A stretch of DNA of 64,000 nt. Origin: Verrucomicrobium spinosum DSM 4136 = JCM 18804. GTDB taxonomy: Bacteria; Verrucomicrobiota; Verrucomicrobiia; Verrucomicrobiales; Verrucomicrobiaceae. A program made the position numbers and the translations under genes. The stretch covers positions 186,001 to 250,000 of the forward strand of contig NZ_ABIZ01000001.1 of NCBI RefSeq assembly GCF_000172155.1. Reading direction: 5' to 3'. Positions 9,831 through 48,858 of the stretch are shown piece by piece. Each line of letters starts with the position of its first letter. Position 1 is the stretch's first letter. The notes under the pieces are model-generated. The model did no database searches. It was not told where the DNA came from and saw only the letters and a list, made by a program, of their open reading frames with translations.

Positions 9831-9930
9831 GGAGTGATGGATTATTGGAGTGATGGAGTAGAGGAAATCACTCCAGAGCCCCGCCATTTCATCATTCCAA
9901 TACTCCAACACTCCATTTCTCCAACACTCC
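9831..9930. repeat. GGAGTRNT octamer repeat, inverted pair
   Basis: Forward units (GGAGTGATGG, ATTATTGGAGTGATGGAGTA) at 9831-9862 are followed by inverted units (CATTCCAATACTCCAACACT and CCATTTCTCCAACACTCC) at 9893-9930, allowing a long imperfect hairpin between the DUF1552 gene and the first orphan paralogue. Confidence 0.82.
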
Positions 9931-9940
9931 CCTCTCCTCC

Positions 9941-11218: not shown

Positions 11219-11223
11219 TCTCC

Positions 11224-11290
11224 TGGAGTGATGGAGCAATGGAGCGGTGGAGTATTGAAACTCCATCACTCCAATACTCCACCACTCCAT
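11224..11290. repeat. GGAGTRNT octamer repeat, near-perfect hairpin
   Basis: The cleanest copy of the element. The 19-nt left arm ATGGAGCGGTGGAGTATTG (about 11239-11257) pairs with CAATACTCCACCACTCCAT (about 11272-11290) with a single mismatch, around a short centre that also contains ACTCCATCACTC. It fills almost the whole gap between the two orphan paralogues. Confidence 0.85.
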
Positions 11291-30735: not shown

Positions 30736-31845
30736 TCAAGGTTGAAACACCCGCATCACTTCATGGTAGGCAGGCTTGGGTGCCCCGTTTCGATCGAACA
30801 GCAGTGGATGATTGTCACGCTTCCAGGGGAAGTCGTTCAACCAGCTCTGTCCGTCGTGGAGGTTCCAGAAAGAGACGCGCGCGATGGTATCGGAGTACTT
30901 GTTAAAGAGCCGGAAGAGTTGGGCATACTGCGCGGCCTGTCGTTGCAGGATTTCCGGAGGGCAGCCCTGTGCATAGGGATTGTGCTTGGAGAGAGTCGCA
31001 CGCTCCGCACCATTGTCCGCCCACCAGCGCCCGCGCGGAATGACGTCGATGTCCAGCTCGGAGATGACGACTTTCATCTTCATGGCACGCATGGCCTGCA
31101 GGGTTTTTTCCAGGGCTTCAAACGGGACCAAGTCCAGTTCGTAGTGCCCCTGCAGCCCAATGGCGTGTACGGGAATCTTCTGGGCGCGGAGTGATTCGAT
31201 CAGACGGATCATGCTCTGGCGTTTCCCCTCCAGTTCATTGTTGTAGTCGTTGTAGATCAGCATGGCCTCAGGGTCTGCGGCATGAGCGTAGGCGAAGGCG
31301 TTTGCGATGAACTCCTCCCCACAAGCCCTGCTCCAGCACGAGTCGCGCAAGTAGCCCGCCCCATCGTCGAGCGCCTCATTGACGACGTCCCACATCGCTA
31401 TTTTCCCGCGATAGCGGCCCACAACGTTCTCAATGTGTGCCTTCATGCGCTCCAGCAGCAGGTCACGGGAAGCGGGCTGGTCCCCCGCTTTGCTGAACCA
31501 GGAAGGGGTGCGGTCATCTTTCGCCCAGACGAGGCAATGCCCCACCACCTTCAGATTGTGAGCCCGGGCAAACTCAACAAAGCGATCGGGGACTTCGAAG
31601 GACCACGCACCGGGTTGCGCCTGAACGGCTGCGGGTTTCATGCTGTTCTCCGGAGTGATATAGGAAAACTGGGAGGTGAGCAGGGGCCAGTCTTGTGGCC
31701 GCTCAAAGACCCGATCAGTGATGCCCACCCCCATGGAGAACGGCACCACCGTTTTTAATGTCTCAGTGCCGAAGCTGGTGATGCTGACAAGGCAAAGGGC
31801 GGTCGAAAGGAGGAGGCTTCCGGGAGATGGCGAGGCAGGTTTCAT
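30736..31845 (-). CDS. GH10 endo-1,4-beta-xylanase
   Basis: 369 residues, secreted (SLLLSTALCLVSITSFG). Glycoside hydrolase family 10: FSYITPENSMKPAAVQ, GHCLVWAKDDRTPSWF, acid/base Glu157 in MWDVVNEALDDG, nucleophile Glu263 in VVISELDIDV, and VSFWNLHDGQSWLNDF near the end. The enzyme cleaves internal beta-1,4 bonds of xylan. No carbohydrate-binding module is attached. The start at 31845 is set by the signal peptide. Together with the esterase downstream it would deacylate and cut decorated xylan; it is divergent from the Gfo/Idh/MocA gene at 32118. Confidence 0.95.
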   Translation of the reverse strand: MKPASPSPGSLLLSTALCLVSITSFGTETLKTVVPFSMGVGITDRVFERPQDWPLLTSQFSYITPENSMKPAAVQAQPGAWSFEVPDRFVEFARAHNLKVVGHCLVWAKDDRTPSWFSKAGDQPASRDLLLERMKAHIENVVGRYRGKIAMWDVVNEALDDGAGYLRDSCWSRACGEEFIANAFAYAHAADPEAMLIYNDYNNELEGKRQSMIRLIESLRAQKIPVHAIGLQGHYELDLVPFEALEKTLQAMRAMKMKVVISELDIDVIPRGRWWADNGAERATLSKHNPYAQGCPPEILQRQAAQYAQLFRLFNKYSDTIARVSFWNLHDGQSWLNDFPWKRDNHPLLFDRNGAPKPAYHEVMRVFQP

Positions 31846-32117
31846 AGTGGGCGCGTCATCCATTCACCCTTGTTTGGAGGGGCATGGCGAGATCCGTCGG
31901 CTGACTTTCTTTGTGGCAAATCAGACAAGGTTCGCAAGGAGGAGGCTGCGGCCGTGGGGCAACCACGCGTCGTCACCCTTTGGAACTTGGTGGGTCGCTT
32001 GCCGAAAAACCGGAGGTCCTGACGCCGTTACTGATGATGCGCCCGTCAGCTCGCAACCGGCGTCTTTTGTCCCGTTGCCTACGGTGAGCCCATCGCCTGT
32101 CCCTGTTATTTGAAATC

Positions 32118-33551
32118 ATGAAACCATCCGACCCTCTGCCCCAGCCATCCCGCCGCCGCTTCGTCAAACAATCGCTCTCTGCGGGGTTCGGCTTTACCTT
32201 TCTGCCGGCCTACCTCACCAGCGCCCGGGCCGCCGACAATCCCAAACTCCCGCCGAGCCGCCGGATCAATCTGGGCTGCATCGGCGTAGGCGGGCGTGCT
32301 GGCAGTGTCATTCCCGGGCTGACGGCCGCCGGTTCCGCAGCACCTGTTGCCTTCGTGGACGTGGATTTTGTGACGGCCAAGGGCGTGGAGAAGAACCTGG
32401 CGGCGTTCCCTGATGTGAAGCGCTTCAACGATTTCCGGGTGATGCTGGACGAGATGGGCAAAGACATTGACGCGGTCAGCGTCGTCACGCCAGATCACAC
32501 GCACTTTACCGCTGCGATCCATGCGATGGCCCTGGGCAAGCATGTGTATGTGGAGAAGCCCCTGACGCACACCTTTGAGGAGGCGGAGATCCTCATGCGT
32601 GCGGAGAAGAAGTTCAAGGTGGTCACCCAAATGGGCAACCAGGGCCACACCTCGGCGGGGGCAAACCAGTTCAAGCAGATGCTCGCGGCAGGAATCGTCG
32701 ATGACATCGTGAAGATCGAAGCGTGGAAGTCGCCCTCCCTGTGGTTCATGAATGCGGCCGAGCGCATCCCCGGCTATCCTGCGGAGGAGCCCATGCCAGA
32801 GTCCCTGAAGAGCTGGGACCTGTGGTGCGGTCCGCGCGAGAAGAAGGCCTACAGCAAGATGTACCATCCCTTCAACTGGCGCGGCTTCCACGTCTATGGC
32901 GGCGGCATGTTCGGCGACTGGGGCGCGCACATCATCGACTTTGCCCACCATCATCTGAAGCTGGGCCTGCCCACCAAGATCACGCCGCTGGAGCTGGCGG
33001 ACTACAACCAGGTGAGCTTCCCGCTCACTTCCGACATCCGCTTTGAATTCGCTGCTCGTGGGGAGAAGCTGCCTGCGGTGGAGCTTCACTGGCGGGCGGG
33101 CGAGGTGAAGGTGCAGATCGAGGAAAAATACGGCGATCCCGACAAGGACGGCAAGCTGGTGGCGCCAAAGCCGGGCAAGGCGGGCACGCTGCTCCATCGC
33201 AAGCAGGGCGACTACCTGGTGCAGCGTGGCTCGCATGACAGCCACTCCCTGGTGTACCCGCGCAAGCAGATGGTGGAGTTCAAGGAAGCCATGGGGCTGA
33301 AGCCGCCGAAGCTGAACCACTTTGAGAGCTTCGTGCAGGCCTGCTTGGGCAACGGTACCACCGAGTCCCCTTTCGGCATCTCGGGCGAGCTCACGCAGGT
33401 GTTGAATCTGGGCATGATCGCCGAGTACTTGAACGTCGAGTTGAACTTTGACCCAAAGACGAAGCGCTTCATTGGCAACGATGCCGCCAACGCTCTGCTG
33501 TCGGGTGCCGCTCCGCGTGCCGAGTGGGCTGACTGCTACAAACTGGCATAA
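32118..33551 (+). CDS. Tat-exported Gfo/Idh/MocA oxidoreductase
   Basis: 477 residues. Twin-arginine signal (SRRRFVKQSLSAGFGFTFLP). Rossmann fold with INLGCIGVGGRAGSVIPG, PVAFVDVD, DAVSVVTPDHTHFTAAIHAM, then the family signature HVYVEKPLTH, TQMGNQGHTSAG and HVYGGGMFGDWGAHIIDFAH. Exported members of this family are abundant in Planctomycetota and Verrucomicrobiota and act on sugars or glycosides with a tightly bound NAD(P), including glycosidases that use redox chemistry. The substrate is unknown. Divergent from the xylanase. Confidence 0.93.
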   Translation: MKPSDPLPQPSRRRFVKQSLSAGFGFTFLPAYLTSARAADNPKLPPSRRINLGCIGVGGRAGSVIPGLTAAGSAAPVAFVDVDFVTAKGVEKNLAAFPDVKRFNDFRVMLDEMGKDIDAVSVVTPDHTHFTAAIHAMALGKHVYVEKPLTHTFEEAEILMRAEKKFKVVTQMGNQGHTSAGANQFKQMLAAGIVDDIVKIEAWKSPSLWFMNAAERIPGYPAEEPMPESLKSWDLWCGPREKKAYSKMYHPFNWRGFHVYGGGMFGDWGAHIIDFAHHHLKLGLPTKITPLELADYNQVSFPLTSDIRFEFAARGEKLPAVELHWRAGEVKVQIEEKYGDPDKDGKLVAPKPGKAGTLLHRKQGDYLVQRGSHDSHSLVYPRKQMVEFKEAMGLKPPKLNHFESFVQACLGNGTTESPFGISGELTQVLNLGMIAEYLNVELNFDPKTKRFIGNDAANALLSGAAPRAEWADCYKLA

Positions 33552-33599
33552 GCCACCTGCAGAGGGCCGACGTTGCTGACAAAGCGGCTCTTGTCTTTT

Positions 33600-33646
33600 G
33601 CCTTTGAGTCGGCGTTGTCTTCCAAAAGACGACGCTGCTCAAAGGC
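33600..33646. terminator. strong hairpin between convergent genes
   Basis: GCCTTTGAG at 33600-33608 pairs with CTCAAAGGC at 33638-33646; the inner part (GGCGTTGTCTT and AAGACGACGC) continues the stem with few mismatches. There is no T-run. Position between converging gene ends suggests a two-way transcription barrier. Confidence 0.6.
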
Positions 33647-33691
33647 TCCCCATGCGATCCAGGCCACGCGGGCGGCGCATTCCGGCTGTCT

Positions 33692-34147
33692 TCAGCTTCT
33701 CGGCTTCTCGAACCAGAGTTTCATCACCAGCGCCGTCCATGTCGGAAAGGCCCCCACTGCGGGCAAGACTTCTGGAATCAACACCAAAGCGATCTCCCAG
33801 CGGAATCCCCAGATCGCCAGAAGGGTAATGCAAGCCAGCCCGTCAGCCATCCAGCCCGATGGCGGAGCAAAGTCACATGCGTCAGCAATGACGGCCACTA
33901 CGAGAGAGATCAACGGGCGGAAGATGGGACGCTGAGCAGGACCAGAACGGGAGCTCTGCGAGGAGCGTGCCATTCTCTCCTCAAAGGAAGGTCTTGAATG
34001 GGCAGGGGAGGGACTCGCCTGGAGACGAGGGCTGTGCAATCCAGCGTCCGGTTCTGGGTGGCCGCCACTGCCCGACTCTCTAGGACTAGATCCGGTGCTG
34101 CGTGAAGGCGTCGAATTCTGCGGACGCTTTGGAATTAGTGAGCTCAT
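33692..34147 (-). CDS. small membrane protein of the GTPase locus
   Basis: 151 residues. The first ~75 are Ser/Pro/Arg-rich and polar. Two hydrophobic segments follow: FRPLISLVVAVIADACDF and a longer WMADGLACITLLAIWGFRWE with ALVLIPEVLPAVGAF. I recognise no family. The gene is the last of six in the minus-strand arm, 51 bp after the membrane-anchored orphan, so it probably shares its transcript. A partner or pore-like membrane component of the locus is a guess from context only. Low-complexity N-terminus and lack of a known family make this the least certain gene of the locus. Confidence 0.6.
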   Translation of the reverse strand: MSSLIPKRPQNSTPSRSTGSSPRESGSGGHPEPDAGLHSPRLQASPSPAHSRPSFEERMARSSQSSRSGPAQRPIFRPLISLVVAVIADACDFAPPSGWMADGLACITLLAIWGFRWEIALVLIPEVLPAVGAFPTWTALVMKLWFEKPRS

Positions 34148-34198
34148 AACGGGTCAGGAAAGATCTCGTTTTTTTGAATCACGGTTCCGATTGGATCG

Positions 34199-35170
34199 TC
34201 ACTCAGGCCGGGTGCTTCGCGACGCGGGTGATGAGTTCTCTTTCTTATCCTTCCCACTGTTTTCTTCGTCACGTTGGCGATCGTCTTCCTCGCGAGAGGT
34301 TCGAGAACTATCTGAACGATGAGGAACGGTCCTTTGCGGTTGAGGGGTGGGAGGGGCCTCGGGTTCATTCCCGCCACCGAACAAGCCTTTCACCCAACCA
34401 AAAAGGCCACGTTTTGCAGGCTCTCGGGGTGTCTGTTGATTGTATGCAGCTTCGGCGAGGCCCCGGTTGTATCCTTTCACTTCACCGGCGGCGAGTCCGG
34501 AATTGTAGCCCTGCCGATAGCAGCCATGCATACAGATGCTTGCCAGGACCACACCGGCTACGGCCCCAAGGGGCCTCCATGCTGGCAATTTGATTTGGAA
34601 CGGACTCGACGCTGGGAGGGGAGCGTCTACAGGCGGCGGGGGAATCTTTGGTGGCGGCGCGGCGAAGACGACAACGGAGGGATCCTTGTCACTGATGCCC
34701 CAATGCCCCTCCCGACGAGGAGCGTTGAGCAGGCGGCCCAGCGTCGTCTGACCAGCACTGGGAAGATACTCGGAAGCTTGCAAGGGCTGGAGCGGCTTGA
34801 CGTTGAGAGGGAGGCTGCGTTCGGTGCTGAAGTGCTTCAGCACGTTTGTCACCAATGGCGAGGTCCAGTCGCCAGGAGCGCGCAACTTGCAGAGGACAAA
34901 GAAATACCGGCCAGGTCTGCCGAAGCGATCCCGCCCGCCGGAATAGACACGGTATGCCCAAAAAGTGTCGCCCCCTTCGTCGATGACGCCGTACCATTCA
35001 GCCCGGTCGTCGCTCCAGTCGCGGATCTTGGCTGGCCAGCCTTTGTGCACCTGTCTTGCGGCCTCGTTCCAGTCGGCATCGGTTTGCACATTGGACCACT
35101 GCCACTCTTCGCCCCCGATGTGATACGGATCAAAGACGGCAATTCCGTTGTCGTAAGGGATCGATGACAT
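34199..35170 (-). CDS. membrane-anchored protein of the GTPase locus, unknown family
   Basis: 323 residues from the ATG at 35170. N-terminal globular domain at about 1-130 (FDPYHIGGEEWQWSNVQTDA, AEWYGVIDEGGDTFWAYRVY, GGRDRFGRPGRYFFVLCKL); the D-x-x-GRPG-x-x-F segment recalls GTPase-associated proteins of bacterial conflict systems, an impression I could not test. Then a Pro-rich linker (APPPKIPPPPVDAPLP), one transmembrane helix (LGAVAGVVLASICMHGC, about 201-217), Gly/Tyr-rich short repeats (GYNSGLAAGEVKGYNRGLAE) and a charged tail. It is 28 bp downstream of the GTPase-PLAT gene in the same direction. A longer in-frame start at 35299 would overlap that gene and is rejected. Likely a membrane partner of the GTPases. 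Confidence 0.75.
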   Translation of the reverse strand: MSSIPYDNGIAVFDPYHIGGEEWQWSNVQTDADWNEAARQVHKGWPAKIRDWSDDRAEWYGVIDEGGDTFWAYRVYSGGRDRFGRPGRYFFVLCKLRAPGDWTSPLVTNVLKHFSTERSLPLNVKPLQPLQASEYLPSAGQTTLGRLLNAPRREGHWGISDKDPSVVVFAAPPPKIPPPPVDAPLPASSPFQIKLPAWRPLGAVAGVVLASICMHGCYRQGYNSGLAAGEVKGYNRGLAEAAYNQQTPREPAKRGLFGWVKGLFGGGNEPEAPPTPQPQRTVPHRSDSSRTSREEDDRQRDEENSGKDKKENSSPASRSTRPE

Positions 35171-35198
35171 GATGGAAAGGGAAAAGAGAAGAGTTAAA

Positions 35199-36491
35199 CT
35201 AGGAGGCGGGTCCGGGTTGCAGCGGTTTGGCGCAACCGCCTCTGTCATTGGACAGCCAGTTGTAGTAGGGAAACGTGGTGGTGCTGAGCAGTTCTCCATA
35301 ACGGAACTGCTTCACCTCGATGAAATCCAAGTGCCAACCGCCTCGCTTGGAGTCGTCATGCGCCACGTTTACACTCTGTATTTTGCCGACCCGGGACGCT
35401 CGCAGGTTGTTGAAGGTATCCACCTGGCCCGTTTCGAAAGCATCTTTGGAGCTCGCAGACGGCTTGAGACCATTGAATGTCAATGTGTCACTTTTCCCCT
35501 CTTCGCCATAGATGGTGAGAGTGACGATGGCATCGGTGCCCTCTTTGTGGGCTGGAAATCCCAACTCCTGGCTCTTTTGTACTTCGACAGGTTTGTCCGG
35601 ATCCAATGGGTCTGGCACGTGGTCATGAGTCTTGAACGTCACCTGATAGGTGAAAGCGTTGTATTCCCTCCAGAAGAGGAGGGCACCTGCCGCCAGGCTG
35701 AGCCCCAGAACGGCGGCACCCACATTCATCAGCACGCGCCTGAACCGAAATTGTCCCAGTTGTTTGCGAATGTAGGAGGTGATCAGCCTCATGTCCCCCG
35801 CTGTCAGAGGTGCCTTGGGTACGGAGAACAGCATGTCGTCCTGGTGGACTATTTCCGTGACCACGCTGGAGACCGGAATGAATGGCACATTTGCCTGTTC
35901 GATAGCGCCGCACAATTCCGGCAAGTGCCTTACCTGCTCCAGAAGGACTGACTTTAGGTCGTGGGTTGCGTCCAGCAGACCGGCATATTGATCAATCTTT
36001 GTCACGACGACCGCGCGGCTTTTTGACCTCCATCGACTGTTGTCTAGAAATGCGCTGAGCAGGAAGGCATTCTCACCGGGAGCATTCTCCCGGGTTTCTG
36101 AAAAGAAATCTTCCAGGTTGAGAAAGAAGAGCATGGTGTTTGCCGCATCCAGGTGCTGGCGGATGGCCAGCATCTCTGGATTGGTCTCGACCTCGGGCAG
36201 ATTTTTGAGCACTTTGCGCAACTGTTTGCCGTCGCAGTCCAACATCTCCAGCTCGTGTTTCTTGCTCTGGATGCCGATGCGCCAGAACAGACGGTGGAGT
36301 TGTCCTGTTACGGTGGATGGCGGCCAGTTGCCGTCGGCCATGGCAGTTCTTGCCGTGGCCACATACTCCGCCGTGGCGAAGTCCTTGGGCTGCATTTGCA
36401 GATCCTTGGCATGCTCCTGCACGTAGCTGCCGAGCATGGCGAGAAAGACGGTCTTTCCGGAACCGTCAGGTCCGACGATGACAAGCTTCAT
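35199..36491 (-). CDS. GTPase with transmembrane helix and C-terminal PLAT/LH2 domain
   Basis: 430 residues. P-loop GPDGSGKT (7-14), a G3-like LDCDG (85-88), and G4 TKID (164-167), so an intact small GTPase of about 250 residues. One transmembrane helix follows (about 254-274). Residues 318-415 match a PLAT/LH2 beta-sandwich: AIVTLTIYGEEGKSDTL, FETGQVDTFNN, GKIQSVNVAHDDSKRGGWHL, DFIEVKQ and the family-closing FPYYNWLSNDRG. PLAT domains bind lipids or membrane proteins and are best known from lipoxygenases and polycystins; linkage to a GTPase through a membrane helix is unusual. The topology would put GTPase and PLAT on opposite sides of the membrane. The start overlaps the stop of the dynamin-like gene by four bases. 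Confidence 0.85.
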   Translation of the reverse strand: MKLVIVGPDGSGKTVFLAMLGSYVQEHAKDLQMQPKDFATAEYVATARTAMADGNWPPSTVTGQLHRLFWRIGIQSKKHELEMLDCDGKQLRKVLKNLPEVETNPEMLAIRQHLDAANTMLFFLNLEDFFSETRENAPGENAFLLSAFLDNSRWRSKSRAVVVTKIDQYAGLLDATHDLKSVLLEQVRHLPELCGAIEQANVPFIPVSSVVTEIVHQDDMLFSVPKAPLTAGDMRLITSYIRKQLGQFRFRRVLMNVGAAVLGLSLAAGALLFWREYNAFTYQVTFKTHDHVPDPLDPDKPVEVQKSQELGFPAHKEGTDAIVTLTIYGEEGKSDTLTFNGLKPSASSKDAFETGQVDTFNNLRASRVGKIQSVNVAHDDSKRGGWHLDFIEVKQFRYGELLSTTTFPYYNWLSNDRGGCAKPLQPGPAS

Positions 36492-37549
36492 GGTGTGATG
36501 CGCAAAATCAGTTCATGGGCCCCCTGAGTTGCCTTCAGATTCTCCAGTTTGTCCGACCGCCAGGGTACGGTGCGCAGCGCGGCCTGACGGAGCGGTTCGC
36601 GCGCCAGTTCCGCGAAGTCATCGCAGGCATGGACAACTTGCTCATGGTGCAGGCGCTGTCGTGCGGTGATGGAGGCTCGCTCTTCGATGAGAGCGTGAAG
36701 GCTGTCGATGTTGGACTCGACGAGCTTCTGTTCATCCTTTTTCTGATAGGCATGGATCGCCCACTTCGCCTGCACGAACAGGAACTGGCAGAGCGGGAAA
36801 AGATGAGAGAACTGGTGTTGGAATTTTGCCATCTCCTCCTCATTTTTTTCGGGATTGCTTTCCCAGCGTGTCACCACGACCGTGCTGCAGAGGTCCTGGA
36901 GATCTCTGAAAAACTCAACCTCCCTGGGGCTGGTCTTCCAGTTGTTGGCGTCTCCCCGCACGCAGAAGAGCACCTCGTTCACATGGGTGCGGACGTACTG
37001 GATGATCTCAGCATCCTGTTCCGGTCCCGTGATGGCTTCCGCTGCTCCGCATCCTGGCATGTCCACCAGCACCAGCCCCTCAGGCAGCCCTGGCAGAGGT
37101 CCTCTGACGATGATGCGGATGATCGACTTTGCCGCATGCTCATCAACATCAAAGACAAGCTGCCGCAACCGGACTGAGAGACGGGTGGCATCGTCAAATG
37201 TCTCTCTCTTGATGTGCAGCCCCGTGTGGTAGGATGTTATGGACCAGGAGTCGCCCTTTTCGTACTCGACCGGCACTGCCGTGGCCGCTCCATTCCGACG
37301 GGGAGCGACCGGCTCACGCAACAGCGCCTGCGCCAGGGTAGATTTTCCCACGTTTGTCAGCCCGATCATCGAAACCACATAGCGTTCGTTGGCCAGCGCG
37401 CGCGTTCGATGAAACAGCGGCATGAGACGCTGGGCCTGAAAATCTCGCAAGAACATCGCGAATTGCGCATGACCGGGCCGGGGATTCGCAGCCAGATTGC
37501 GAGCCGTGTCCTGAAACAACATCACCAGAGATGAAATGAGCTGATCCAT
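36488..37549 (-). CDS. dynamin-like GTPase, short form
   Basis: 353 residues. P-loop GLTNVGKST (63-71), G3 DMPG (163-166) after EGLVLV, and a degenerate G4 TRWE in STVVVTRWESN where T/NKxD is usual. Residues around 76-90 (LLREPVAPRRNGAATAVPVE) fit the switch I region of dynamin-superfamily proteins (T preceding V-P-V). No transmembrane segment is evident. It is followed by the GTPase-PLAT gene with a four-base overlap and preceded by a longer dynamin-like gene, 21 bp away. Paired dynamin-like genes commonly form heteromers that remodel membranes; that role is inferred here. Confidence 0.84.
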   Translation of the reverse strand: MDQLISSLVMLFQDTARNLAANPRPGHAQFAMFLRDFQAQRLMPLFHRTRALANERYVVSMIGLTNVGKSTLAQALLREPVAPRRNGAATAVPVEYEKGDSWSITSYHTGLHIKRETFDDATRLSVRLRQLVFDVDEHAAKSIIRIIVRGPLPGLPEGLVLVDMPGCGAAEAITGPEQDAEIIQYVRTHVNEVLFCVRGDANNWKTSPREVEFFRDLQDLCSTVVVTRWESNPEKNEEEMAKFQHQFSHLFPLCQFLFVQAKWAIHAYQKKDEQKLVESNIDSLHALIEERASITARQRLHHEQVVHACDDFAELAREPLRQAALRTVPWRSDKLENLKATQGAHELILRITP

Positions 37550-37570
37550 ACGCAGAACAATTTGGGGAAC

Positions 37571-39538
37571 TTAAAAGAGGCGCACCGCGGGCGCTGCCGA
37601 AGTATCCGCTGCGGTCGCCGGAAGCGCTGGCGTTGGCGCTGGCTGGATCACGCCGTCCAGCAAGAGCAACGTGGTCTTGAGCTGCTCCAGTCGCTCGGCA
37701 CTTGGCCGTTCCTTCAGCAAGCCCGTCAGCTTGGCCTCGTACGCGGTGAGCCTTGCCGTGGTTTCATTGAGAAACTCATCGACGATCAGCACATCCTTGC
37801 GGCTCAACACCCGGACATTCTGCGTGGTTTCATGAATCGCGTCTGTGATCAGATCTTTTACCGCCAGTGAAAGGGCGTTACGCGTTTCTGCCATCCGGCC
37901 CTTCCAGGTTGTGAAGCAGCGGTAGCAGGCCATTCCGATGAGAACCGGCGTACCCAGTGCTGCAACCGGGGCCAGCAGGGCACTCGCGGCCGCGCCACCT
38001 GCACCTGCCGCACCCACTGCCACCCAGGTAAAGGGATTCCACCAGACGAGTGCCGGTGCCACCGCCATGGCTGTCGATGCCACCAGACCCGGCAAACTCG
38101 CGACGCCGAAGGCCGCCAGCAGTGACGGCACCAGCGAAGTCACGGCTTCGACAGCGGGGTTGAAGGATTGTTTGTTGCTGATCACGGGGGCTATCTGCCG
38201 GGCTGCGACACCCAGGGAGGCACTGAAGTCCACCCCTAGCACTCGGACTGCCTCACCCACCGCCTCGCGAAGCCCGTCACCGGGTTGAGTAAGGTACTCA
38301 TCCAGCCTTTTCATCACATCCGTGTGCACTGTCTTCGCCAGGGTCGTCAAGGCGCGGTCTGGTGTCCTGTCGATCAATGCGTTGTATTCCTCTTTCATGG
38401 CACGCTCGATCGCAGGGAGCACATCCCGGAAATCTTCGAATGCTCTCGTCCAGGCACTTTGAAATCTGCGTTCCAGGGCCGGTCTTTTGGTTCCAAGAGT
38501 TTCCCGCAAGTCAATGATGGTCGCCCTCTCAGCCTGTATTTCCTCGGCACTCCGTTCTGCCATGGCAAGATCTTCTGCCACAACCTCCCGTGCTTCCTTG
38601 GCACAGTGCTTTGTGATCTCAATCAAACGTTCCGTGACGATGGCTGCCCGCCCTTCCCCCACCAGCTTCTGCACCGCCTCCAGCAGATCTTCCATACCGG
38701 GTTCACTGCCAGTTTCTTGGAAGGTTTTTGCGGAGATGACGAACTGATTACATTGACCGTGCTCCAGCTTCGTCAGCACAGCGCGGTTGTGCTCCAGCCC
38801 TTCTGCCAGTTCATCTGCTTCGACAGCATCCGCCATCGTCACCCCGAACAGCAACTTGCTCACGTGCGCTTCTTGCACGTGGGACAGCAGCCTGATCTCT
38901 GACTCGACAAACGGATCGTCCGCCCTCACGAGAAAGATCACTGCGTCCAATCTGGGCAGGAAATCCAGCAGCACGTTGTCATGCAAATTGCTGAGAGCAT
39001 TGTCCGCGCCGGGAGTGTCAACCAGCACCACATCCACCCCCAGCCTCGGGAGCGGTGCGATCACCTCGATGGTCTTCACATTCTTGCTATTGCGAGGGTT
39101 GCCTTCCTCGCATGCGAACTTGCGAATCTCGACCGCGTGAATCAACTGCCCCGGGTCCTCCGGCCGGTCCGAATGTCGGACCACGCGGATTGTTTCCTCA
39201 GGACCGTTGGCAAAACAGGTGACCACATTGGTGGCTGGCGACCGGTTCACCGGCGCATACAAATCGTCCCGCCTCCCCAGCACCGCATTGATGAAGGTCG
39301 ACTTGCCCGTTTTCGCCCGCCCCACCACGCCGATGGAGAATCGCAGCTGACTCGCAGCGGTGATCGCTTCGGCAAGGCGCTTTTCAACAAGCGTCTGGCC
39401 GGCTCCCGCCAATGCTGCTTGCAGTTCCTTTGCGCGCTTGATCGCCTGCTGTAGCTCCGGATAGTTGCCAAGGGAGGTGCTCACGGAAGTATAGTATAAA
39501 TTTTTTATGCTATGCATTGGAATAGCTGGTGCCATCAT
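37571..39538 (-). CDS. dynamin-like GTPase with membrane segment, long form
   Basis: 655 residues from the ATG at 39538. P-loop GRAKTGKST (73-81), switch I region PVNRSPATNVVT (96-107), G3 DTPG (174-177), and TMAD (234-237) at the usual NKxD place. A helical stalk follows (EEIQAERATIIDLRETLGTK, FEDFRDVLPAIERAMKEEYN), then a hydrophobic stretch at about 475-555 (VTSLVPSLLAAFGVASLPGL, GAAASALLAPVAALGTPVLI), probably a membrane-inserting paddle, and a final helical return. This is the layout of bacterial dynamin-like proteins. Longer in-frame starts would overlap the small orphan gene. 17 bp separate it from that gene upstream. Confidence 0.86.
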   Translation of the reverse strand: MMAPAIPMHSIKNLYYTSVSTSLGNYPELQQAIKRAKELQAALAGAGQTLVEKRLAEAITAASQLRFSIGVVGRAKTGKSTFINAVLGRRDDLYAPVNRSPATNVVTCFANGPEETIRVVRHSDRPEDPGQLIHAVEIRKFACEEGNPRNSKNVKTIEVIAPLPRLGVDVVLVDTPGADNALSNLHDNVLLDFLPRLDAVIFLVRADDPFVESEIRLLSHVQEAHVSKLLFGVTMADAVEADELAEGLEHNRAVLTKLEHGQCNQFVISAKTFQETGSEPGMEDLLEAVQKLVGEGRAAIVTERLIEITKHCAKEAREVVAEDLAMAERSAEEIQAERATIIDLRETLGTKRPALERRFQSAWTRAFEDFRDVLPAIERAMKEEYNALIDRTPDRALTTLAKTVHTDVMKRLDEYLTQPGDGLREAVGEAVRVLGVDFSASLGVAARQIAPVISNKQSFNPAVEAVTSLVPSLLAAFGVASLPGLVASTAMAVAPALVWWNPFTWVAVGAAGAGGAAASALLAPVAALGTPVLIGMACYRCFTTWKGRMAETRNALSLAVKDLITDAIHETTQNVRVLSRKDVLIVDEFLNETTARLTAYEAKLTGLLKERPSAERLEQLKTTLLLLDGVIQPAPTPALPATAADTSAAPAVRLF

Positions 39539-39555
39539 ATTGTCCAGTGAATGAT

Positions 39556-40071
39556 TCAGGCGGCGATGGTCTTGGCAATTTGTTGCACGCGTGGCATCAC
39601 GATGATCCGTCGCACAGGTGACAGATCTGGCACGGCGACTCTGGGTGCGGACACGGGTGGCGTCGGGAAGGCGAGGGTGGGGATGACGAGCCCGCCGCCT
39701 CCCTCGGTGATCATGCCAGGCTGGGTGAGCAGCAGTCTTCTCGCCTGCTCCATGACCCCGCCAAGCCCGAGGCCGCCCAGCGTGGTTCTGGCCGCGGCAA
39801 TCGCCTTGCCCAGATGCGGTGCGATGTGCGCTTCCCAAAGGATGTGGTCAGCATCAAGAGAGGGGGCCATGGGGCGACTGAAGGTCACCTTGGGGATGAT
39901 GGCTGCAGCGGGCGCTTCGCTGTGCAGGGCTTCCGCCACAAAGATCGCCAGGGCGTAGCGCGAGGGCTGGGTGCAGGAATTCGCATGCAAGTTGTTCACG
40001 CCGAACAAGCGCAGACCAGTGCCGGTCATGCAGTCGGGTTGGCGGGTAATGGAGAGCAGGTCAGTGATCAT
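39556..40071 (-). CDS. small orphan protein heading the GTPase arm
   Basis: 171 residues from the ATG at 40071. No signal peptide, transmembrane helix or known motif. It is Ala/Pro/Leu-rich, with GLRLFGVNNLHANSCTQPSR near the N-terminus, a central EAHIAPHLGKAIAAARTTLG and a Pro/Val-rich C-terminus (PTPPVSAPRVAVPDLSPVRR). It is the promoter-proximal gene of the minus arm, 17 bp before the long dynamin-like gene, so it is probably made in stoichiometric excess. It may be a regulator, sensor or effector; none can be supported. An in-frame start further upstream (40230) would cover the regulatory region and is not preferred. Confidence 0.65.
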   Translation of the reverse strand: MITDLLSITRQPDCMTGTGLRLFGVNNLHANSCTQPSRYALAIFVAEALHSEAPAAAIIPKVTFSRPMAPSLDADHILWEAHIAPHLGKAIAAARTTLGGLGLGGVMEQARRLLLTQPGMITEGGGGLVIPTLAFPTPPVSAPRVAVPDLSPVRRIIVMPRVQQIAKTIAA

Positions 40072-40418
40072 GGCAGTAGTTTGGTTTGTTGCAGGTTGGT
40101 GATGAATTTTTGTGGCGGCACAATGCTTCCACGGCGCGCCTGATCGGCCAACTTTTGTCGCAGGACACCGGTGGACACTCCCCGGCTTCACCTGTCCTGA
40201 ATGTTGTCCTTCTGAGCACGAGGAGCCCATTCCCTCGCTCTCGATTGCCTTGCGTGGATGGGGCCCGGGTTGGGTGCCCCGGCGAGATTCCGTTCGGTGT
40301 CCTGCCGTGTCCTCTCCTGTCCTGCCAAGTCCGATTTAATCACTGGCATCGCCCCGCGATCTGGGATCAAATTCTTCCCGTGGACAAACCATCGCCAAAC
40401 TCAGGGATCGAGGCACTC
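40072..40418. promoter_or_regulatory. divergent promoter region with phased TGTCCT repeats
   Basis: About 347 bp between the two arms of the GTPase/STAND locus with no supported gene. TGTCCT occurs on the plus strand at 40193, 40205, 40298, 40308 and 40318, and its complement AGGACA at 40162. The last three are spaced exactly 10 bp, one helical turn, and a degenerate fourth (AGTCCG) lies at 40328. This fits a binding array for a transcription factor about 100 bp upstream of the first STAND gene. No core promoter could be assigned with confidence. Confidence 0.6.
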
Positions 40419-41528
40419 ATGCTCATCAAAGCGTGTCTGAAGGACCACGGCCTGAAGTTCACCGAACTGCACTACCACGTTCCTGGTTCTCACGAGCACC
40501 TGAAGCATCTCACCACAGGTGGGACGCCACGCCCACCCACCAAGGAGAGCATCACGCGCATTGCAAAGGCCATATTTGCCATGACCCACCCGGTTGAAGG
40601 AGCCTCCGATGCCACCCACTACAATCCGGTCGCCCTGTGGCAAGACCTCCTGCGTGGCCTCAATCGCCTGGGCAAAGGTAAACTGCAGGAGGATGCGGAC
40701 GAACGCCGATTCTGCCATTTCCTGTTAGATCTCTTCGAGCTCAACAATGAACCTGCTGGTGAGCGCCATGAGCCTTTCCTGGAACGTGGATGCATCCTGG
40801 ATTCCCGTGACTTTCATGGGAGGGCGGAACAGCTGCACCGGCTGCGCGGGCAAAAGTGCGGTCAGATCAACGGGGGACGAAAAATTGGCAAATCCTCACT
40901 CCTGCGTGAAGCAGGCCGGAAGCTGACAAACTGGCACCCCAGGCATGCCTTTGCCTATGTGGACATGATGCGGGCGGATACCCACACCGTGCAGGGTTTC
41001 TATGCAGAAGTGGCCTCTGCTTGGGGGCTGATCAATTCGCCAACTTCAAACGCGGACTTTTCCCTCTGTTGCAAGGAGGAATCTAAAAAGCGCCACCTTG
41101 TCCTCGTGATTGATGAAGCGGAACGATTCACCAGTCTGGAGCTGAGCCAGCAGTTTGACTTCCAGTTCTTTGAGAACCTTCGCGCCGTCAGCCAACAGTG
41201 CCTGACCTTGTGGTTTGGCAGCAAGAAGTCCCTGCGAGAGTTCGCCAAGTGCAGTGAAAACGTCTCCCCATTCAACACGGCACCGGTTACGCTTCTGGGG
41301 CTCTTTACTCCACAAGAAGCTGCCAGCTTCCTTACCTCAGTAGAGGGGGTGTCGTTTGATTCTCGGGAGTCTGAGACGATCCTTCACTGGGCGGGGCAAC
41401 ATCCCTGCAAGCTTCAGATCGCTTGCTACAATGTGCAGCTCAAGCGCGAGTTTGGACGCTCATTGGACGAGGCGATGCATGATGCCGAGATCGAATGGAA
41501 CAGTATCAAAACCCTGGAGGAATGCTAG
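40419..41528 (+). CDS. STAND-type P-loop ATPase, soluble
   Basis: 369 residues. The ATG at 40419 follows GAGG at a five-base distance; a GTG at 40380 is an alternative. N-terminal ~110 residues are helical with no recognised domain. P-loop NTPase: Walker A GGRKIGKSS (152-160) and Walker B LVLVIDEAE (227-235), then LTLWFGSKKSLREFAK (sensor-like region) and FTPQEAASFLTS, HPCKLQIACY typical of the winged helix after the STAND module. No repeats or effector domain follow, so partner proteins probably supply them. The next gene begins two bases after its stop and is a membrane-bound relative with the same ATPase type, so the two are co-translated. Start of the plus-strand arm. Confidence 0.82.
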   Translation: MLIKACLKDHGLKFTELHYHVPGSHEHLKHLTTGGTPRPPTKESITRIAKAIFAMTHPVEGASDATHYNPVALWQDLLRGLNRLGKGKLQEDADERRFCHFLLDLFELNNEPAGERHEPFLERGCILDSRDFHGRAEQLHRLRGQKCGQINGGRKIGKSSLLREAGRKLTNWHPRHAFAYVDMMRADTHTVQGFYAEVASAWGLINSPTSNADFSLCCKEESKKRHLVLVIDEAERFTSLELSQQFDFQFFENLRAVSQQCLTLWFGSKKSLREFAKCSENVSPFNTAPVTLLGLFTPQEAASFLTSVEGVSFDSRESETILHWAGQHPCKLQIACYNVQLKREFGRSLDEAMHDAEIEWNSIKTLEEC

Positions 41529-41530
41529 CG

Positions 41531-43846
41531 ATGACATCCCATCTCCGTTGGTCGTTGCATGTACTTTACCTGCTGTTGTTCTGGCCATCGCGCTACAAGG
41601 CCGATATCGGCTTGCAGGTTGACATCAGCTTGAAATCCCGTCTCCGTCACATGACGCGGATGGTGCCCGCTCTCATGTTCCTGGCCCTGGTGGGGAGCTG
41701 CGTTCTGGCGCTGACCATCCACTGCATCAATGGTGCCCCCATTTTCTGGCCAGGGATACTGCCGGGAGTCGTGGCCGGGGTGCTGGTGGGGGCCGCCTGT
41801 TTTCTCCTGGTTTCAGACACCGTCATGGCTACGACGATGGCCTTGTCGATGGGCCTGCTCTGGGGCATCACCGGTCTTGAGTACCTCGGTCTGCCCAGGA
41901 CGCTTGTGGTCCAGGCCACCGGCCTTTCAGGTGCTTTGTGGCTGAGTTGCTCCACCGGCATCGTGATTGCCATCACTTCAAGTTTGGGGCGGCCTCCTCT
42001 CCCTGCTCTCTGGATCAGACTCTTTCTGGCATTGATCGGCACAGCCTTCTTTGCGCTGTTTGGCCTGGGTGTCGCCATGAATGCGGGTTTGTCCAAGGCT
42101 GTCTGCGCTCTGAGCAGCAGCATGAGCTTCCTGGTCAGCTTCATCGTGGTGCACTTCCGCCTGTTCGACTATCCGATCTACGCCTTGCAGTCATGGTCTC
42201 TCGCAAAGGCCAGCAGCCAGCCCAATGCCGATGTTAGCAGGCTCTGGAAGAAACATCCCCTCGCTTGGAATGAAGTGATCTGGCTTCCCTTGCCCGGAGT
42301 CGTCACTTTTTTGGCAAACTTGGTCAAGTCCGACCGTGACTTTGGCTACGAGATCATCTCTTTTGTTTCCGCGCACCGGCGGCATCAGGCACGTGCTGTG
42401 AGCGCAGCCTTGAGTGAGGTCATGCTGCAAGATCTGCAGGTGACGGCCTTTAACCAGTTTCCCGAAGTCCTGCGTCGCCTGGAGTGGTTGCGCACTCCAC
42501 CCAAACGTCTGCCGCAGATTGCAGTCCAGCATGGTCCTGCGTTTGTCAGGATTGCCGAGCATGCCGCACATCGTCTGGCGCTGACCTCCCGTGAGCAACA
42601 GCTTCAATCTCTCGACCGCGGCGCAACGGAGATCGAGCAGTTGCAGAGAAGCACGATGGGCACTCCGGATGTGCTTGCTTCACGGCTGCTTCAATGTGCG
42701 ATGGACTGGCAGAGCCTCTTTCGGGATGAACTGCGCCGAACCCGTGACAACGTGCCCGACCTCGGCCACATCCCTGATCTCTTCAAAGCTGGCAGCTATC
42801 TCAAGGAAGAAGACGCCCAGTCATTCTTTGGTCGTGAGGACGAGTGGCATCAACTGGAGAACTTCATGCTCGCTCCCGCGGCGGCCTCAGCGATTCTCCT
42901 AAGAGGGGCGCGACGCATGGGGAAGAGCAGTCTGCTTCTACAGTTGCCCAGGCTGCTCGGACCCGACTGCACAGCCTGCTATCTGGACATGCAGAATGCC
43001 GCCTGCAACGAAAACCTTCCCCGCTTCTTTACAGCTCTTTCTGAAGCTATCACCACAGCTTTGCTGCGCCGCGGGGTAACCGTGCAAGGCTTGCTGATCG
43101 CTCAACTGAGGGATGAGCCATTCGCCACCTTCAATGAGTGGTTGGACTCCACAGAGAAGGCCATGCGTCCCGGCCTTCGCATCTGCATCTGCATTGATGA
43201 ATATGAACGCATGAGCCGTCTTGCCAAGCAAGACCCGGACTGGCGTTTGCTGGACTATCTCCGTCATCTCCAGCAACAGCACCGCAGCCTCGTCCTCATC
43301 TATTGCGGGATGCGGCCCTTCCATGCACTCGGACCTGAGTGGGCCAGTCGCTTCGTCGGGGCACGTACGCTTAAACTCGGTTGTCTGGATCGGCAGTCGT
43401 CCATCAGGCTGCTGACCTCTCCACAGCCGGACTTTCCTCTTCGCTATGCTCCTGGAGCTCTCAATCACCTGCTGGAAATCACCGGTTGCCAGCCCTTCCT
43501 TCTTCAAGCTGTCGCCGGAGAGTTGGTGCGGCAGTTAAACAAGGAAAAGCGGATGACCGCCACCGTGGTGGACGTGGACAACGCCGTCGCTTTGGCCTTT
43601 GAGGCCTGGAGTGACTACCGTATCGACCTCTGGAACGATGCTGGGTCCGACGGTCAGGCTCTTGTTGTGAGGCTTCTTGCCGGGCAGCCTGCGACCCCAG
43701 GGCCTGCTCTTGCCCGTTTGTGCGACTACGACCTGCTCTCCTCTGAAGGGAAATTCAAGGTGCCCATTCTGGAACACTGGCTTCGCCGGGCCCTTGAGGC
43801 AGGCGAAATATCCCTGGATCTTGAACTGCACGCTAATCCACCCTGA
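41531..43846 (+). CDS. polytopic membrane STAND-type ATPase
   Basis: 771 residues from the ATG at 41531, preceded by GGAGG ten bases upstream (inside the end of the previous gene). The first ~215 residues carry about six hydrophobic segments (MVPALMFLALVGSCVLALTI; GILPGVVAGVLVGAACFLLV; LWIRLFLALIGTAFFALFGL; and others), then a helical cytoplasmic linker. The ATPase part begins with the STAND-typical FFGREDEW (432-439), Walker A GARRMGKSS (459-467), Walker B ICICIDEYE (551-559), LVLIYCGMRPFHALG, and GCQPFLLQAVAGELV in the winged-helix region. It ends with a short tail, without tetratricopeptide or WD repeats. A membrane-embedded sensor or effector that oligomerises on ATP binding is a plausible role, by analogy with other STAND systems. 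Confidence 0.84.
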   Translation: MTSHLRWSLHVLYLLLFWPSRYKADIGLQVDISLKSRLRHMTRMVPALMFLALVGSCVLALTIHCINGAPIFWPGILPGVVAGVLVGAACFLLVSDTVMATTMALSMGLLWGITGLEYLGLPRTLVVQATGLSGALWLSCSTGIVIAITSSLGRPPLPALWIRLFLALIGTAFFALFGLGVAMNAGLSKAVCALSSSMSFLVSFIVVHFRLFDYPIYALQSWSLAKASSQPNADVSRLWKKHPLAWNEVIWLPLPGVVTFLANLVKSDRDFGYEIISFVSAHRRHQARAVSAALSEVMLQDLQVTAFNQFPEVLRRLEWLRTPPKRLPQIAVQHGPAFVRIAEHAAHRLALTSREQQLQSLDRGATEIEQLQRSTMGTPDVLASRLLQCAMDWQSLFRDELRRTRDNVPDLGHIPDLFKAGSYLKEEDAQSFFGREDEWHQLENFMLAPAAASAILLRGARRMGKSSLLLQLPRLLGPDCTACYLDMQNAACNENLPRFFTALSEAITTALLRRGVTVQGLLIAQLRDEPFATFNEWLDSTEKAMRPGLRICICIDEYERMSRLAKQDPDWRLLDYLRHLQQQHRSLVLIYCGMRPFHALGPEWASRFVGARTLKLGCLDRQSSIRLLTSPQPDFPLRYAPGALNHLLEITGCQPFLLQAVAGELVRQLNKEKRMTATVVDVDNAVALAFEAWSDYRIDLWNDAGSDGQALVVRLLAGQPATPGPALARLCDYDLLSSEGKFKVPILEHWLRRALEAGEISLDLELHANPP

Positions 43847-43976
43847 AGGTAGCTGGGATGGCTGGAAGGCGATGTCTACAGGCGCCCCTTCCCATCTGCG
43901 GGCTTCCAGACGCCACTTTCCTGCAAAATCTCCCCAATTCCGAGCGATTAGTCATTGCCCCCTTCACTGAACCCGC

Positions 43977-45248
43977 ATGAATCGTCGTCGTTTTATTCTC
44001 CAATCCCTCGGTGCCACGCTCGCGTTGCCGGGGCTCACTTCGCTCAAAGCCAGTGCTGTGGGGGGCAATGCGGCCGTCCAGATGGCCAAAGGGGCGGGCA
44101 TGGGAGCAAGGCGGTTCGTGGCGATTGGCAACCTGCTTGGGTTCCAGGTGAAACAGCTTTTCCCCACAACCACGGGTGCGGCGTACGAGAAGACCACCCT
44201 GCTGGAGCCCATCTGGGACAATCGCAGCCAGATGACGGTTTATCGCGGTCTTGATCACGGCGTCAAGGGCGGGCACTTCGCGGTCCACTCCTTCCTTTCC
44301 GGGGTGCTGAACTCCGAGGCCCAGAACCGTCCGGATGGGAATGTCACGATCGACCAGTACCTCGCGGATGAGGTGGGCTTCGAGACGCGGTTCCCCTCGC
44401 TGACCGTTGGCTCTGAAGGGGGGATTCACGGTGGCTGCCAGATCGCGTGGACGAAGTCGGGTGTGCGGGTGCCGCCGATCACGAACCCGGCCGAGTTGTT
44501 TGAGAAGCTCTTCATCAGCGAGTCGAAAGAGCGCCAGGAACGCCGCGTGCAGGAAAATGGGGTGCAGGCCTCGATCCTGGACTCCGTAAGGGAGGAGGCC
44601 AACCGCCTCTCCGGCCAGGTGAACAAGGAGGACAAGGACAAGCTCGACGAGTACCTGACCTCTGTGCGGGATGTGGAGAAGCGCCTGGAACTCCGGAAGC
44701 GCTGGACCCTGCAGCCCAAGCCCGCCGCTCCGTTTGACAAGCCGGCGAACCGCAATGCGGTGGAGGATCTGCCGCTGTTGTATGAACTGATCACACTCGC
44801 CCTGCAGACGGACAGCACGCGCATCGCCACGCTGGAGATCGGGGGCGATTTCATGCCGCAACACCTGGGCATCAAAAAGGATTACCACGGTCTGTCCCAC
44901 CACGGCAATGACCCGGAGGCGATCGCGAACCTCATCGCCCTGGAGCGGTACCAGATTGAGCACTTTGGCAAATTCGTGAGCCGCCTGTCCAAGGTAAACG
45001 ACGGGGATCGCACCCTGCTGGACTCCACCACGGTGCTCTTCGGCAGCGGCATGGGGGACGGGAACTCACACAAGAACTCGGATCTTCCCATCATCCTTGC
45101 GGGCGGCGGCTACAAGCATGGCGAGTACCGGCAGGTGCCGCGTGAGGGAATCAACAAGGTGCCACTGTGCAATCTCTTCGTGGATATCGCGCAGAAGATG
45201 GGCGTGGAGACCGACCGCTTTGGCAGCAGCACTGGCCGTTTTGCTTAA
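43977..45248 (+). CDS. DUF1552 protein, Tat-exported (second copy)
   Basis: 423 residues. Signal RRRFILQSLGATLALPGLTS with a twin-arginine character. DUF1552 markers: LEPIWDNRSQMTVYRGLDHG, GGHFAVHSFLSGVL, NVTIDQYLADEVG, EYLTSVRDVEKRLELRKRW, ALQTDSTRIATLEIGGDF, YHGLSHHGNDPEAIANLIAL, LLDSTTVLFGSGMGDGNSHK and NSDLPIILAGGGYKHGEYR. The stop codon shares its last base with the ATG of the following cytochrome gene (TAATG), so the two are translationally coupled, unlike the first DUF1552/DUF1592 pair in the window. About 130 bp separate it from the STAND gene upstream. Confidence 0.94.
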   Translation: MNRRRFILQSLGATLALPGLTSLKASAVGGNAAVQMAKGAGMGARRFVAIGNLLGFQVKQLFPTTTGAAYEKTTLLEPIWDNRSQMTVYRGLDHGVKGGHFAVHSFLSGVLNSEAQNRPDGNVTIDQYLADEVGFETRFPSLTVGSEGGIHGGCQIAWTKSGVRVPPITNPAELFEKLFISESKERQERRVQENGVQASILDSVREEANRLSGQVNKEDKDKLDEYLTSVRDVEKRLELRKRWTLQPKPAAPFDKPANRNAVEDLPLLYELITLALQTDSTRIATLEIGGDFMPQHLGIKKDYHGLSHHGNDPEAIANLIALERYQIEHFGKFVSRLSKVNDGDRTLLDSTTVLFGSGMGDGNSHKNSDLPIILAGGGYKHGEYRQVPREGINKVPLCNLFVDIAQKMGVETDRFGSSTGRFA

Positions 45249-47899: not shown

Positions 47900-48366
47900 A
47901 GCTCGCTGCGCGAGAGACACAAGACGACAAGATGCCAGACACAAGACCTGAGCTGGCGCGGGAGGACGCGCACAGCAAAAGGGAAGGACATTCTTGTCCC
48001 TGCCCTTGGTCGTTCTGACCGTATGGGACAAGGTCCACCCCAGCAGGCGTTAAGGGGGGGGCAGAGATCCTCCGATTTAACGGGATAAAGTGCAGGAACT
48101 AACTCGGGTTGAGTCAGTGCTGTCCCGTCATGGACAAAACCGCCAAACCGAGCACCTATCCAAAAGGATAATAGATTGCAAAAGCTATAATACCCATCAA
48201 AACAATGTTTTCGATTTTTGATTGCGCATTTGTTAAATACATCGTTAAAAATAACAAACTCATGCATCATAAATTCTGCATCATGCTGGCGCAAGTCAGC
48301 CGCGATCTGGTAAATGAGACAAGAAGTGGCGTCTGTTCCTCGAATTCCCGTTCTCTGGAGAAGGGC
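47900..48366. other. gene-free stretch with AT-rich promoter-like part
   Basis: No gene supported. It holds a hairpin (GGACATTCTTGTCC at 47987-48000), GC-rich spacer sequence, and from about 48160 to 48290 a distinctly AT-rich segment in an otherwise GC-rich window (for example TTGTTAAATACATCGTTAAA). This is the likely promoter region of the lipoprotein and giant-protein genes. A start codon at 48205 exists in frame with the lipoprotein but gives an implausible N-terminus. Confidence 0.45.
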
Positions 48367-48783
48367 ATGCCTCTGCGAACTCTTTACGGGAGCGGAAGGG
48401 GCATGTCGGTGGCATCGCTTCTGAATGGTGCGATTGCTGGCCTCACCATGCTCACGATGGGAAGCTGCTCCCCCAAGTCTGAGCGTGACACGAACGTCCT
48501 CTCCAAGGCGGAGCCGTCAAATGTCGCAGCAGCCCCTCAGCCACTGACCCAGGGATCAGGGGCCACAGCGGCCCCCGTGTTCGTGGTCCAAACCTCACCC
48601 TCGATGACGTCTCGAACCCTCGAGGCAAGATCCAGCATCATCCCGGGCCGCGAGGCTAAATCTGGTAGTAAGACCTTGAGAGCCCAGGATGTGAAAGCCG
48701 ACCAGACCGTGCAAGTCTCTCCTGTGGTGCTCGACAAGCAGAATCGTGAGTTGATGGACGCACTCACTGTGAAGCCCCGCTAG
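48367..48783 (+). CDS. small lipoprotein upstream of the giant gene
   Basis: 138 residues from the ATG at 48367, which follows GGAGAAGGG at a suitable distance. The signal peptide (LLNGAIAGLTMLTMGSC) ends in a lipobox-like MGSC. The mature part is Ser/Thr/Ala/Pro-rich without a known domain (QTSPSMTSRTLEARSS, KADQTVQVSPVVLDKQNREL). It lies 75 bp before the giant gene in the same direction and could be a co-expressed periplasmic or outer-membrane accessory. A start at 48403 is an alternative. Confidence 0.6.
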   Translation: MPLRTLYGSGRGMSVASLLNGAIAGLTMLTMGSCSPKSERDTNVLSKAEPSNVAAAPQPLTQGSGATAAPVFVVQTSPSMTSRTLEARSSIIPGREAKSGSKTLRAQDVKADQTVQVSPVVLDKQNRELMDALTVKPR

Positions 48784-48842
48784 TCCTGAGGCAAGCCCAC
48801 CCCCAATCCCCCCGAAAATCCGTCATGAAACATCGCCTGCTA

Positions 48843-48850
48843 TTTTTTTT
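48843..48850 (+). other. T8 homopolymer, probable frameshift site at the giant gene's start
   Basis: An ATG at 48824 opens a frame that encodes MKHRLLFFFD and runs out of the giant protein's frame at this T8 run. If the run were T7, the frame would read MKHRLLFFSISMLIGFACPF and continue straight into the giant protein, giving a complete signal peptide. Confidence 0.6.
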
Positions 48851-48858
48851 CGATATCG

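Follow-up and report, generated by a model that had tools for sequence, protein, structure and literature searches.

The locus at 35199-36491 of the window (the 64,000-nt stretch of the Verrucomicrobium spinosum DSM 4136 genome analysed here) raises the question of what a bacterial GTPase would do with a PLAT/LH2 domain held at its C-terminus by a membrane-spanning helix. The original prediction had read a P-loop, a TKID motif, a single helix and PLAT landmarks from one reading frame, and had proposed a new signalling layout in which a GTPase on one face of a membrane is joined to a lipid- or protein-binding domain on the other. Translation of the minus strand gave one open frame from 36491 to 35199, encoding 430 aa, in which the P-loop GPDGSGKT, a DxxG motif (D85, G88), TKID, the hydrophobic helix and three PLAT landmarks all lie, and Pfam matches over their cut-offs bore out the reading of a single frame.

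At residues 4-128 the protein matched DO-GTPase1 in Pfam (family PF19975/PF19993) with 33.5 bits against a cut-off of 27, the match spanning model positions 1-119 of 271; DO-GTPase2 scored 22.7 bits, under its cut-off of 27. In a 13-row alignment of DO-GTPases, G7, G10, G12, K13, T14, D85 and G88 were invariant, and no glutamate was invariant across the 13 rows. An AlphaFold model built with an alignment (13 sequences, i.e. 12 homologous rows, none covering PLAT) had a pLDDT of about 90 over the GTPase (residues 1-250), followed by a helix at residues 235-273. When this model was compared with known structures by a second aligner, the matches covered residues 1-253 of the protein, and the top places were tied between a GTPase chain of the SRP-SRP-receptor complex (Z 14.6, 174 residues), Arf-type GTPases and YcjX (6nz4; Z 14.0, rmsd 3.7, 231 residues, 13% identity). 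Motifs, alignment, model and fold matches together identify a TRAFAC-type GTPase fold with G1, G3 and G4 motifs. A chance frame or artefact was ruled out by the Pfam scores, the invariant motif positions and the confident GTPase model.

PLAT domains have ligands that include proteins as well as lipids. The Pfam model PLAT (PF01477) matched residues 316-416 (38.7 bits; cut-off 23), and the last 153 residues alone scored 41.8 bits; by sequence alone, the segment was linked weakly to 5-lipoxygenase (E 0.019). Since no homologous row covers it, the PLAT part was poorly modelled with the alignment, mostly at pLDDT below 50. A model made without an alignment was of low confidence (mean pLDDT 40.3) and gave no Foldseek match at E ≤ 0.001; lipoxygenases and an alpha-toxin were among its first 50 Foldseek rows, all at E > 0.001. 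With the second aligner, residues 280-427 of the same model fitted PLAT proteins, the best at Z 8.3 and rmsd 2.6 over 99 residues. Among the best 50 rows, ranks 1-41 were proteins that we label PLAT-bearing, with Z falling from 8.3 to 4.8 and then to 4.4 in the next row; they are lipoxygenases, RAB6IP1, pancreatic and lipoprotein lipases and clostridial alpha-toxin, and many rows repeat the same few proteins. Row 10 fitted badly (rmsd 10), and Z 8 was reached by only 2 chains, with a model of mean pLDDT 40. As a check of the proposed PLAT fold the outcome is divided: residues 280-427 do align to PLAT structures, on a model of low pLDDT, and the alignment-based model did not resolve the domain. 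We regard the PLAT domain as established by its Pfam score, the fold matches being supporting evidence. The model without an alignment also suggests that the domain starts directly after the helix, ahead of residue 318, where it had been placed originally.

The 15 residues before the helix contain five K/R and no D/E, and the 15 after it one of each. Since the excess of K/R precedes the helix, the positive-inside rule puts the GTPase most likely on the cytoplasmic side and the C-terminal part outside, so that the proposed placement of GTPase and PLAT on opposite membrane faces is supported as likely. In the family, a helix scoring at least 1.6 beyond residue 225 was found in 11 of 13 members (L059 scores 1.21 and L052 0.27), and K/R was more frequent before than after the helix in 8 of 12 (L052 left out), with ties in the other four. 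By sequence, the protein is a single chain joining a DO-GTPase, one TM helix and a PLAT domain.

The architecture and likely sidedness given by the original prediction stand; its novelty does not. It had also missed the operon with its dynamin-like partners, and the genomic island in which the gene lies. The larger find is a conserved operon that couples the DO-GTPase to two dynamin-family GTPases. Its order is LeoA-like dynamin, second dynamin-family GTPase, DO-GTPase as third gene, and a one-TM protein (Table 1). The ATG start of the DO-GTPase gene shares 4 bases with the stop of the second gene, giving the two genes a 4-base overlap. In the first gene product, Pfam found Dynamin_N (6.1e-17) and PADLOC found LeoBC (1.3e-14) and LeoA (2.1e-12); the best score of these PADLOC models in the family was 8.7e-20, in L050. 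Against the curated LeoA family NF041922 of NCBIfam, the operon dynamin reached 15.5 bits and fell short of the cut-off of 325. LeoA/LeoBC make up the dynamin-like anti-phage system Eleos.

Table 1. Coordinates of the locus and its surroundings (in the window unless another locus is named).
Feature	Coordinates	Strand	Basis or remark
DO-GTPase (1-250) + TM helix (253-271) + PLAT (about 280-427)	35199..36491	minus	Pfam, models, hydropathy and charge
PLAT/LH2 domain (residues 280-427), with a predicted location outside the inner membrane	35211..35654	minus	Pfam, fold alignment
Single TM helix, residues 253-271	35679..35735	minus	Kyte-Doolittle hydropathy 1.95, modelled helix 235-273, charges
LeoA-like dynamin, 655 aa	37571..39538	minus	Likely ATG chosen as start; mechanical ORF extends to 39838
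Second dynamin-family GTPase, 353 aa	36488..37549	minus	Dynamin_N 1.3e-9 (Pfam); relatives adjoin other operon genes
One-TM protein, 323 aa	34199..35170	minus	ATG at 35170 chosen as start; mechanical ORF starts at 35299
10.27-kb block missing in sister species	33648..43914		Four operon genes and two divergent AAA/STAND-type genes
AAA/STAND-type NTPase, divergent from operon	40086..41528	plus	AAA_22 4.7e-9, over cut-off (Pfam)
AAA/STAND-type NTPase, N-terminal half rich in hydrophobic segments	41495..43846	plus	AAA_16 1.1e-7, over cut-off (Pfam)
Cassette pair, four-gene operon	L019 6314-12270		
Cassette pair, alternative cassette	L020 5192-14532		

The fourth protein has a conserved N-terminal domain, a likely TM segment at residues 200-218 (hydropathy 1.52) and a polar tail, and its homologues occupy the matching position at other loci. 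It was over no Pfam model's cut-off. Its N-terminal motif R-x(3)-GGxDxxGRPGRY is comparable to the GAP1-N2 string RIRDAGLDFSGRSN in L040. Aligned to GAP1-N2 with hhalign, it gave P 0.0069 with 4 rows and a weaker 0.049 with 12 rows; the 12-row score of 17.5, itself a weak match, was higher than in any of 40 column shuffles (maximum 16.6), with controls of 10.0 for the reversed alignment and at most 14.1 for ten unrelated pieces. A related partner protein in L020 also had a weak Pfam match to GAP1-N2 (0.062). Pfam found no GAP1 domain, GAP1-M and GAP1-C included, in the fourth protein and ten aligned relatives (11 members), and no FNIII repeats in the operon's four proteins. A true GAP1 is unproven, since Pfam was negative and the P value weakened as rows grew; the evidence is suggestive, not proof, of a GAP1-N2-like protein rather than a GAP1.

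The operon, with its two dynamin-family GTPases and one-TM protein, is conserved. Relatives were sought in genome contigs with a profile of the second operon gene, and the best 80 of 226 relatives were followed up as loci. Among these 80, profiles found all four genes at 11 loci; one more locus, L081, whose contig is 5.2 kb long, had three of them. Since most of these same loci had gone into the profiles, the count is a consistency check; L053 and L081 stood outside the fourth-gene profile. Independently, and within the same best 80, blastp with the window's own proteins found all four genes in L050, L051, L052, L054, L056 and L058, and the first three in L053, L057, L059, L060 and L062. By record title, the operon loci belong to Verrucomicrobia (L050-L052, L060), Planctomycetes (L053, L054, L056-L059, L081) and Lentisphaeria (L062). 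Gene order is constant, save that in L062 the third and fourth genes have changed places. At the remaining 68 of the best 80 loci, which include a short contig (L055) and a fragmentary match (L061), profiles found neither DO-GTPase nor fourth gene. Scans with the whole DO-GTPase protein, which used one sequence and so reach close relatives only, gave none at E ≤ 0.001 among the 95 genomes closest to the window's own and none in genome contigs (searched with its own patterns), plasmids or viral contigs. The window has one DO-GTPase copy and L050 two; the latter stand in tandem in one operon (9052-11228), and both stop just past the helix.

In the sister genome G001, the sequences corresponding to 31190-33647 (91%) and 43915-60638 (88%) of the window lie only 8 bases apart by blastn, and the block between them is absent. 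Its two AAA/STAND-type genes overlap each other and had no blastp relative in the frames of the best 80 of 226 loci, so the island need not be one functional unit. An integrase, a tRNA or a target-site repeat as the mark of the island was rejected: the integrase check covered the island's named genes (Pfam), no tRNA was found in 25000-50000, and the longest string common to the island's two 100-base edges was 7 bases. Nor does GC content step at the island. To its right, a 3958-aa open frame (48859-60735, plus) is conserved in the sister species and contains internal repeats, seen as off-diagonal blastn matches. Near the operon there is a DUF1552 (HXXSHH) gene in the window (43977-45248) and likewise in L050 (480-1817); its orientation differs and the proximity may be chance.

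Cassette exchange was seen within one genus, where two other sister genomes, G230 and G261, carry different DO-GTPase cassettes at one place. On one side the common flank runs for 4.3 kb (96%); the other flank measures 522 bases (99%), past which the compared stretches diverge again. One cassette is the four-gene operon (L019). The other (L020) holds a kinase-DO-GTPase frame, whose DO-GTPase1 score of 23.1 stays below cut-off, a partner of the GAP1-N2-like type and what by eye is an FHA/ABC protein. These comparisons indicate that the four-gene module comes and goes between related genomes. A PqiA-type membrane protein gene (L019 6129-6899) adjoins the operon and lies partly within the flank common with L020. 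When ten neighbours chosen from seven loci were compared with defence-library models, four matched, at three of the seven loci: a restriction-modification specificity subunit and a PD-(D/E)XK nuclease in L051, an SNF2 helicase in L054 and an IetA-like AAA protein in L057, the SNF2 and AAA matches not being defence-specific. The other six had no defence-model match; two of them are ordinary (DUF1552; PA14/cytochrome) and one is an integrase-core protein (L050).

The part predicted to lie past the DO-GTPase helix varies between species. Of 24 DO-GTPases scanned with Pfam (13, nine more, L081 and L020, with eight further ones outside the scan), the window protein alone has a PLAT domain. A phmmer search with the window's PLAT segment matched none of 33 other DO-GTPase-like frames, a search that a distant PLAT could escape, and the check for the GTPase-TM-PLAT architecture elsewhere, which the original prediction had proposed, turned up no other. 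Instead, DnaJ-type zinc repeats follow the helix in L169 (over cut-off) and L062 (below cut-off), with CxxCxG motifs likewise in L051, and FGE-sulfatase-type domains follow a hydrophobic helix in L172 and L173; Pfam found DUF805 in L170 and an N-terminal GYF domain in L171. The two L050 proteins have 2 and 4 residues past the helix, and L052 has no clear helix. The fourth-protein frame of L053 (6282-8312) also carries a glycosyl-hydrolase-32-type domain, and this may be a second place where the operon takes up an outer module. That PLAT domains are rare in bacteria, as had been stated, holds locally: among 384 genomes of the class 2 have one, and among 203 of the phylum 3 (overlapping sets, both including the window's genome), and the three other PLAT loci of the phylum had no match to the operon's models. 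The large frames that carry those other domains (L037, L187, L188) appear by eye to code for secreted proteins, and LRR-like repeats were seen in L187 and L188, again by eye.

As to function, the reading that we lean towards, at slightly less than even confidence, is a membrane-anchored conflict or envelope-surveillance module of the GTPase-centric kind, with PLAT as its locally chosen sensor. PLAT, on the periplasmic side, would bind a lipid or a protein that signals a breach of the envelope, as when a phage enters or a rival attacks. Transmitted via the helix, this signal would alter the nucleotide state of the DO-GTPase, for which the one-TM partner may be an adaptor or regulator. At the inner membrane, the switch would recruit or release the LeoA-like dynamin pair, and the pair might then reseal or destroy that membrane. 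The reading is favoured because the operon is conserved and its outer part varied, because the block is absent in G001 and cassettes are swapped between G230 and G261, and because some neighbours match defence models and published proposals agree: PMC7159879 proposes DO-GTPase systems as conflict systems near the membrane, and PMC11237479 ties a DO-GTPase in psp operons to membrane stress. It is weakened because most of the chosen neighbours lack a defence match and two of the matches are unspecific, and because the fourth protein lacks GAP1-M and GAP1-C, no FNIII partner is recognised and the link to GAP1-N2 faded as rows were added. The breadth of PLAT ligands, proteins as well as lipids, weakens it further, the ligand being putative. 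A more specific version is an outside-in immune relay, in which a lipid-binding, extracytoplasmic PLAT would sense, at the inner membrane's outer face, damage or lipid that has become exposed, set the DO-GTPase via the helix and deploy the dynamin pair on the inner face, the head being exchanged between species like a plug-in receptor; this is speculative and we consider it unlikely.

The same proteins might instead serve envelope upkeep (membrane repair, lipid traffic or vesicle formation), with PLAT holding the complex at a site, lipid or protein, where the dynamins remodel the membrane. According to PMC6104087, dynamin-like proteins act by restructuring membranes, and in bacteria most of them are encoded in pairs within operons; YcjX, among the GTPase folds, aligned over the most residues, and the psp-operon DO-GTPase linked to membrane stress (PMC11237479) also fits. 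A housekeeping role of this kind is harder to square with the patchy distribution across the nearest genomes, with presence/absence and cassette exchange between related genomes and with the varied outer part, and it seems to us fairly unlikely. A more modest role for PLAT, as a mere anchor to a membrane protein or the cell wall while the one-TM partner or the dynamins do the sensing inside, is in keeping with L050 and L052, in which the core appears to dispense with an outer domain. We hold it to be rather doubtful, since variation between PLAT, zinc repeats and FGE-type domains would be unexpected of a mechanical anchor. Finally, PLAT may have been captured recently at the 3′ end by an accidental fusion and have no role in the system, which would agree with its presence in no other scanned member (Pfam, phmmer); given the intact frame, the kept landmarks, a score well over cut-off and the presence of a domain at the matching place in several relatives, this is very improbable.

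Two families that we found described apart, the DO-GTPase conflict systems and the bacterial dynamin pairs, meet in one conserved four-gene operon whose outer head varies. Should the surveillance function proposed above be true, the operon would offer a concrete, testable system for studying how an outside cue is coupled in bacteria to the remodelling of membranes by dynamins. PLAT, familiar chiefly from lipid enzymes and channels of eukaryotes, would then join the bacterial sensor repertoire.

Calling the arrangement a new signalling layout was too strong. A GTPase joined through a TM helix to an outer ligand domain has a precedent in eLife 2020 e52696 (PMC7159879), which describes DO-GTPases with SH3, PEGA, beta-sandwich, NTF2 and PDZ domains past a C-terminal TM helix, the TM-linked ones also bearing four N-terminal helices. 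What is new relative to the main text of PMC7159879 is the PLAT head and the dynamin partners: 'PLAT' is absent from that text and 'dynamin' occurs 0 times, with mention in its supplements possible, and the literature searched (partly by title) contained no description of a DO-GTPase-PLAT fusion. The same source also reports a conserved Walker B glutamate, two paralogous DO-GTPase copies in 38% of systems, and FGS and GYF modules.

Taken together, the window's module resembles the GTPase-centric (DO-GTPase/GAP1-N2) systems of PMC7159879, as far as its text describes them, in the C-terminal TM and ligand-type domain, the membrane-bound partner, the variable modules and the mobile neighbourhoods, with FGE-type and GYF domains in relatives here and FGS and GYF there. 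It differs from those described systems in a core with two dynamin-family GTPases and a PLAT head, in a partner that is a short GAP1-N2-like domain with one TM, with no FNIII component recognised, and in a DO-GTPase without N-terminal helices or zinc ribbons. Like Eleos, it has adjacent dynamin-family genes that match the PADLOC LeoA/LeoBC models; unlike Eleos, its second GTPase is short (353 aa), a DO-GTPase and a one-TM partner are added and the LeoA cut-off is missed. The fold of the GTPase domain is like that of the bacterial GTPase YcjX, in a tie with Arf-type and SRP-receptor-complex GTPases, whereas identity to YcjX is low and only residues 1-247 of the window protein take part. The PLAT domain, in turn, is like those of lipoxygenases, lipases, clostridial alpha-toxin and RAB6IP1 in Pfam family, in landmarks and, on a low-confidence model, in fold, and unlike them it is attached to a membrane-anchored GTPase.
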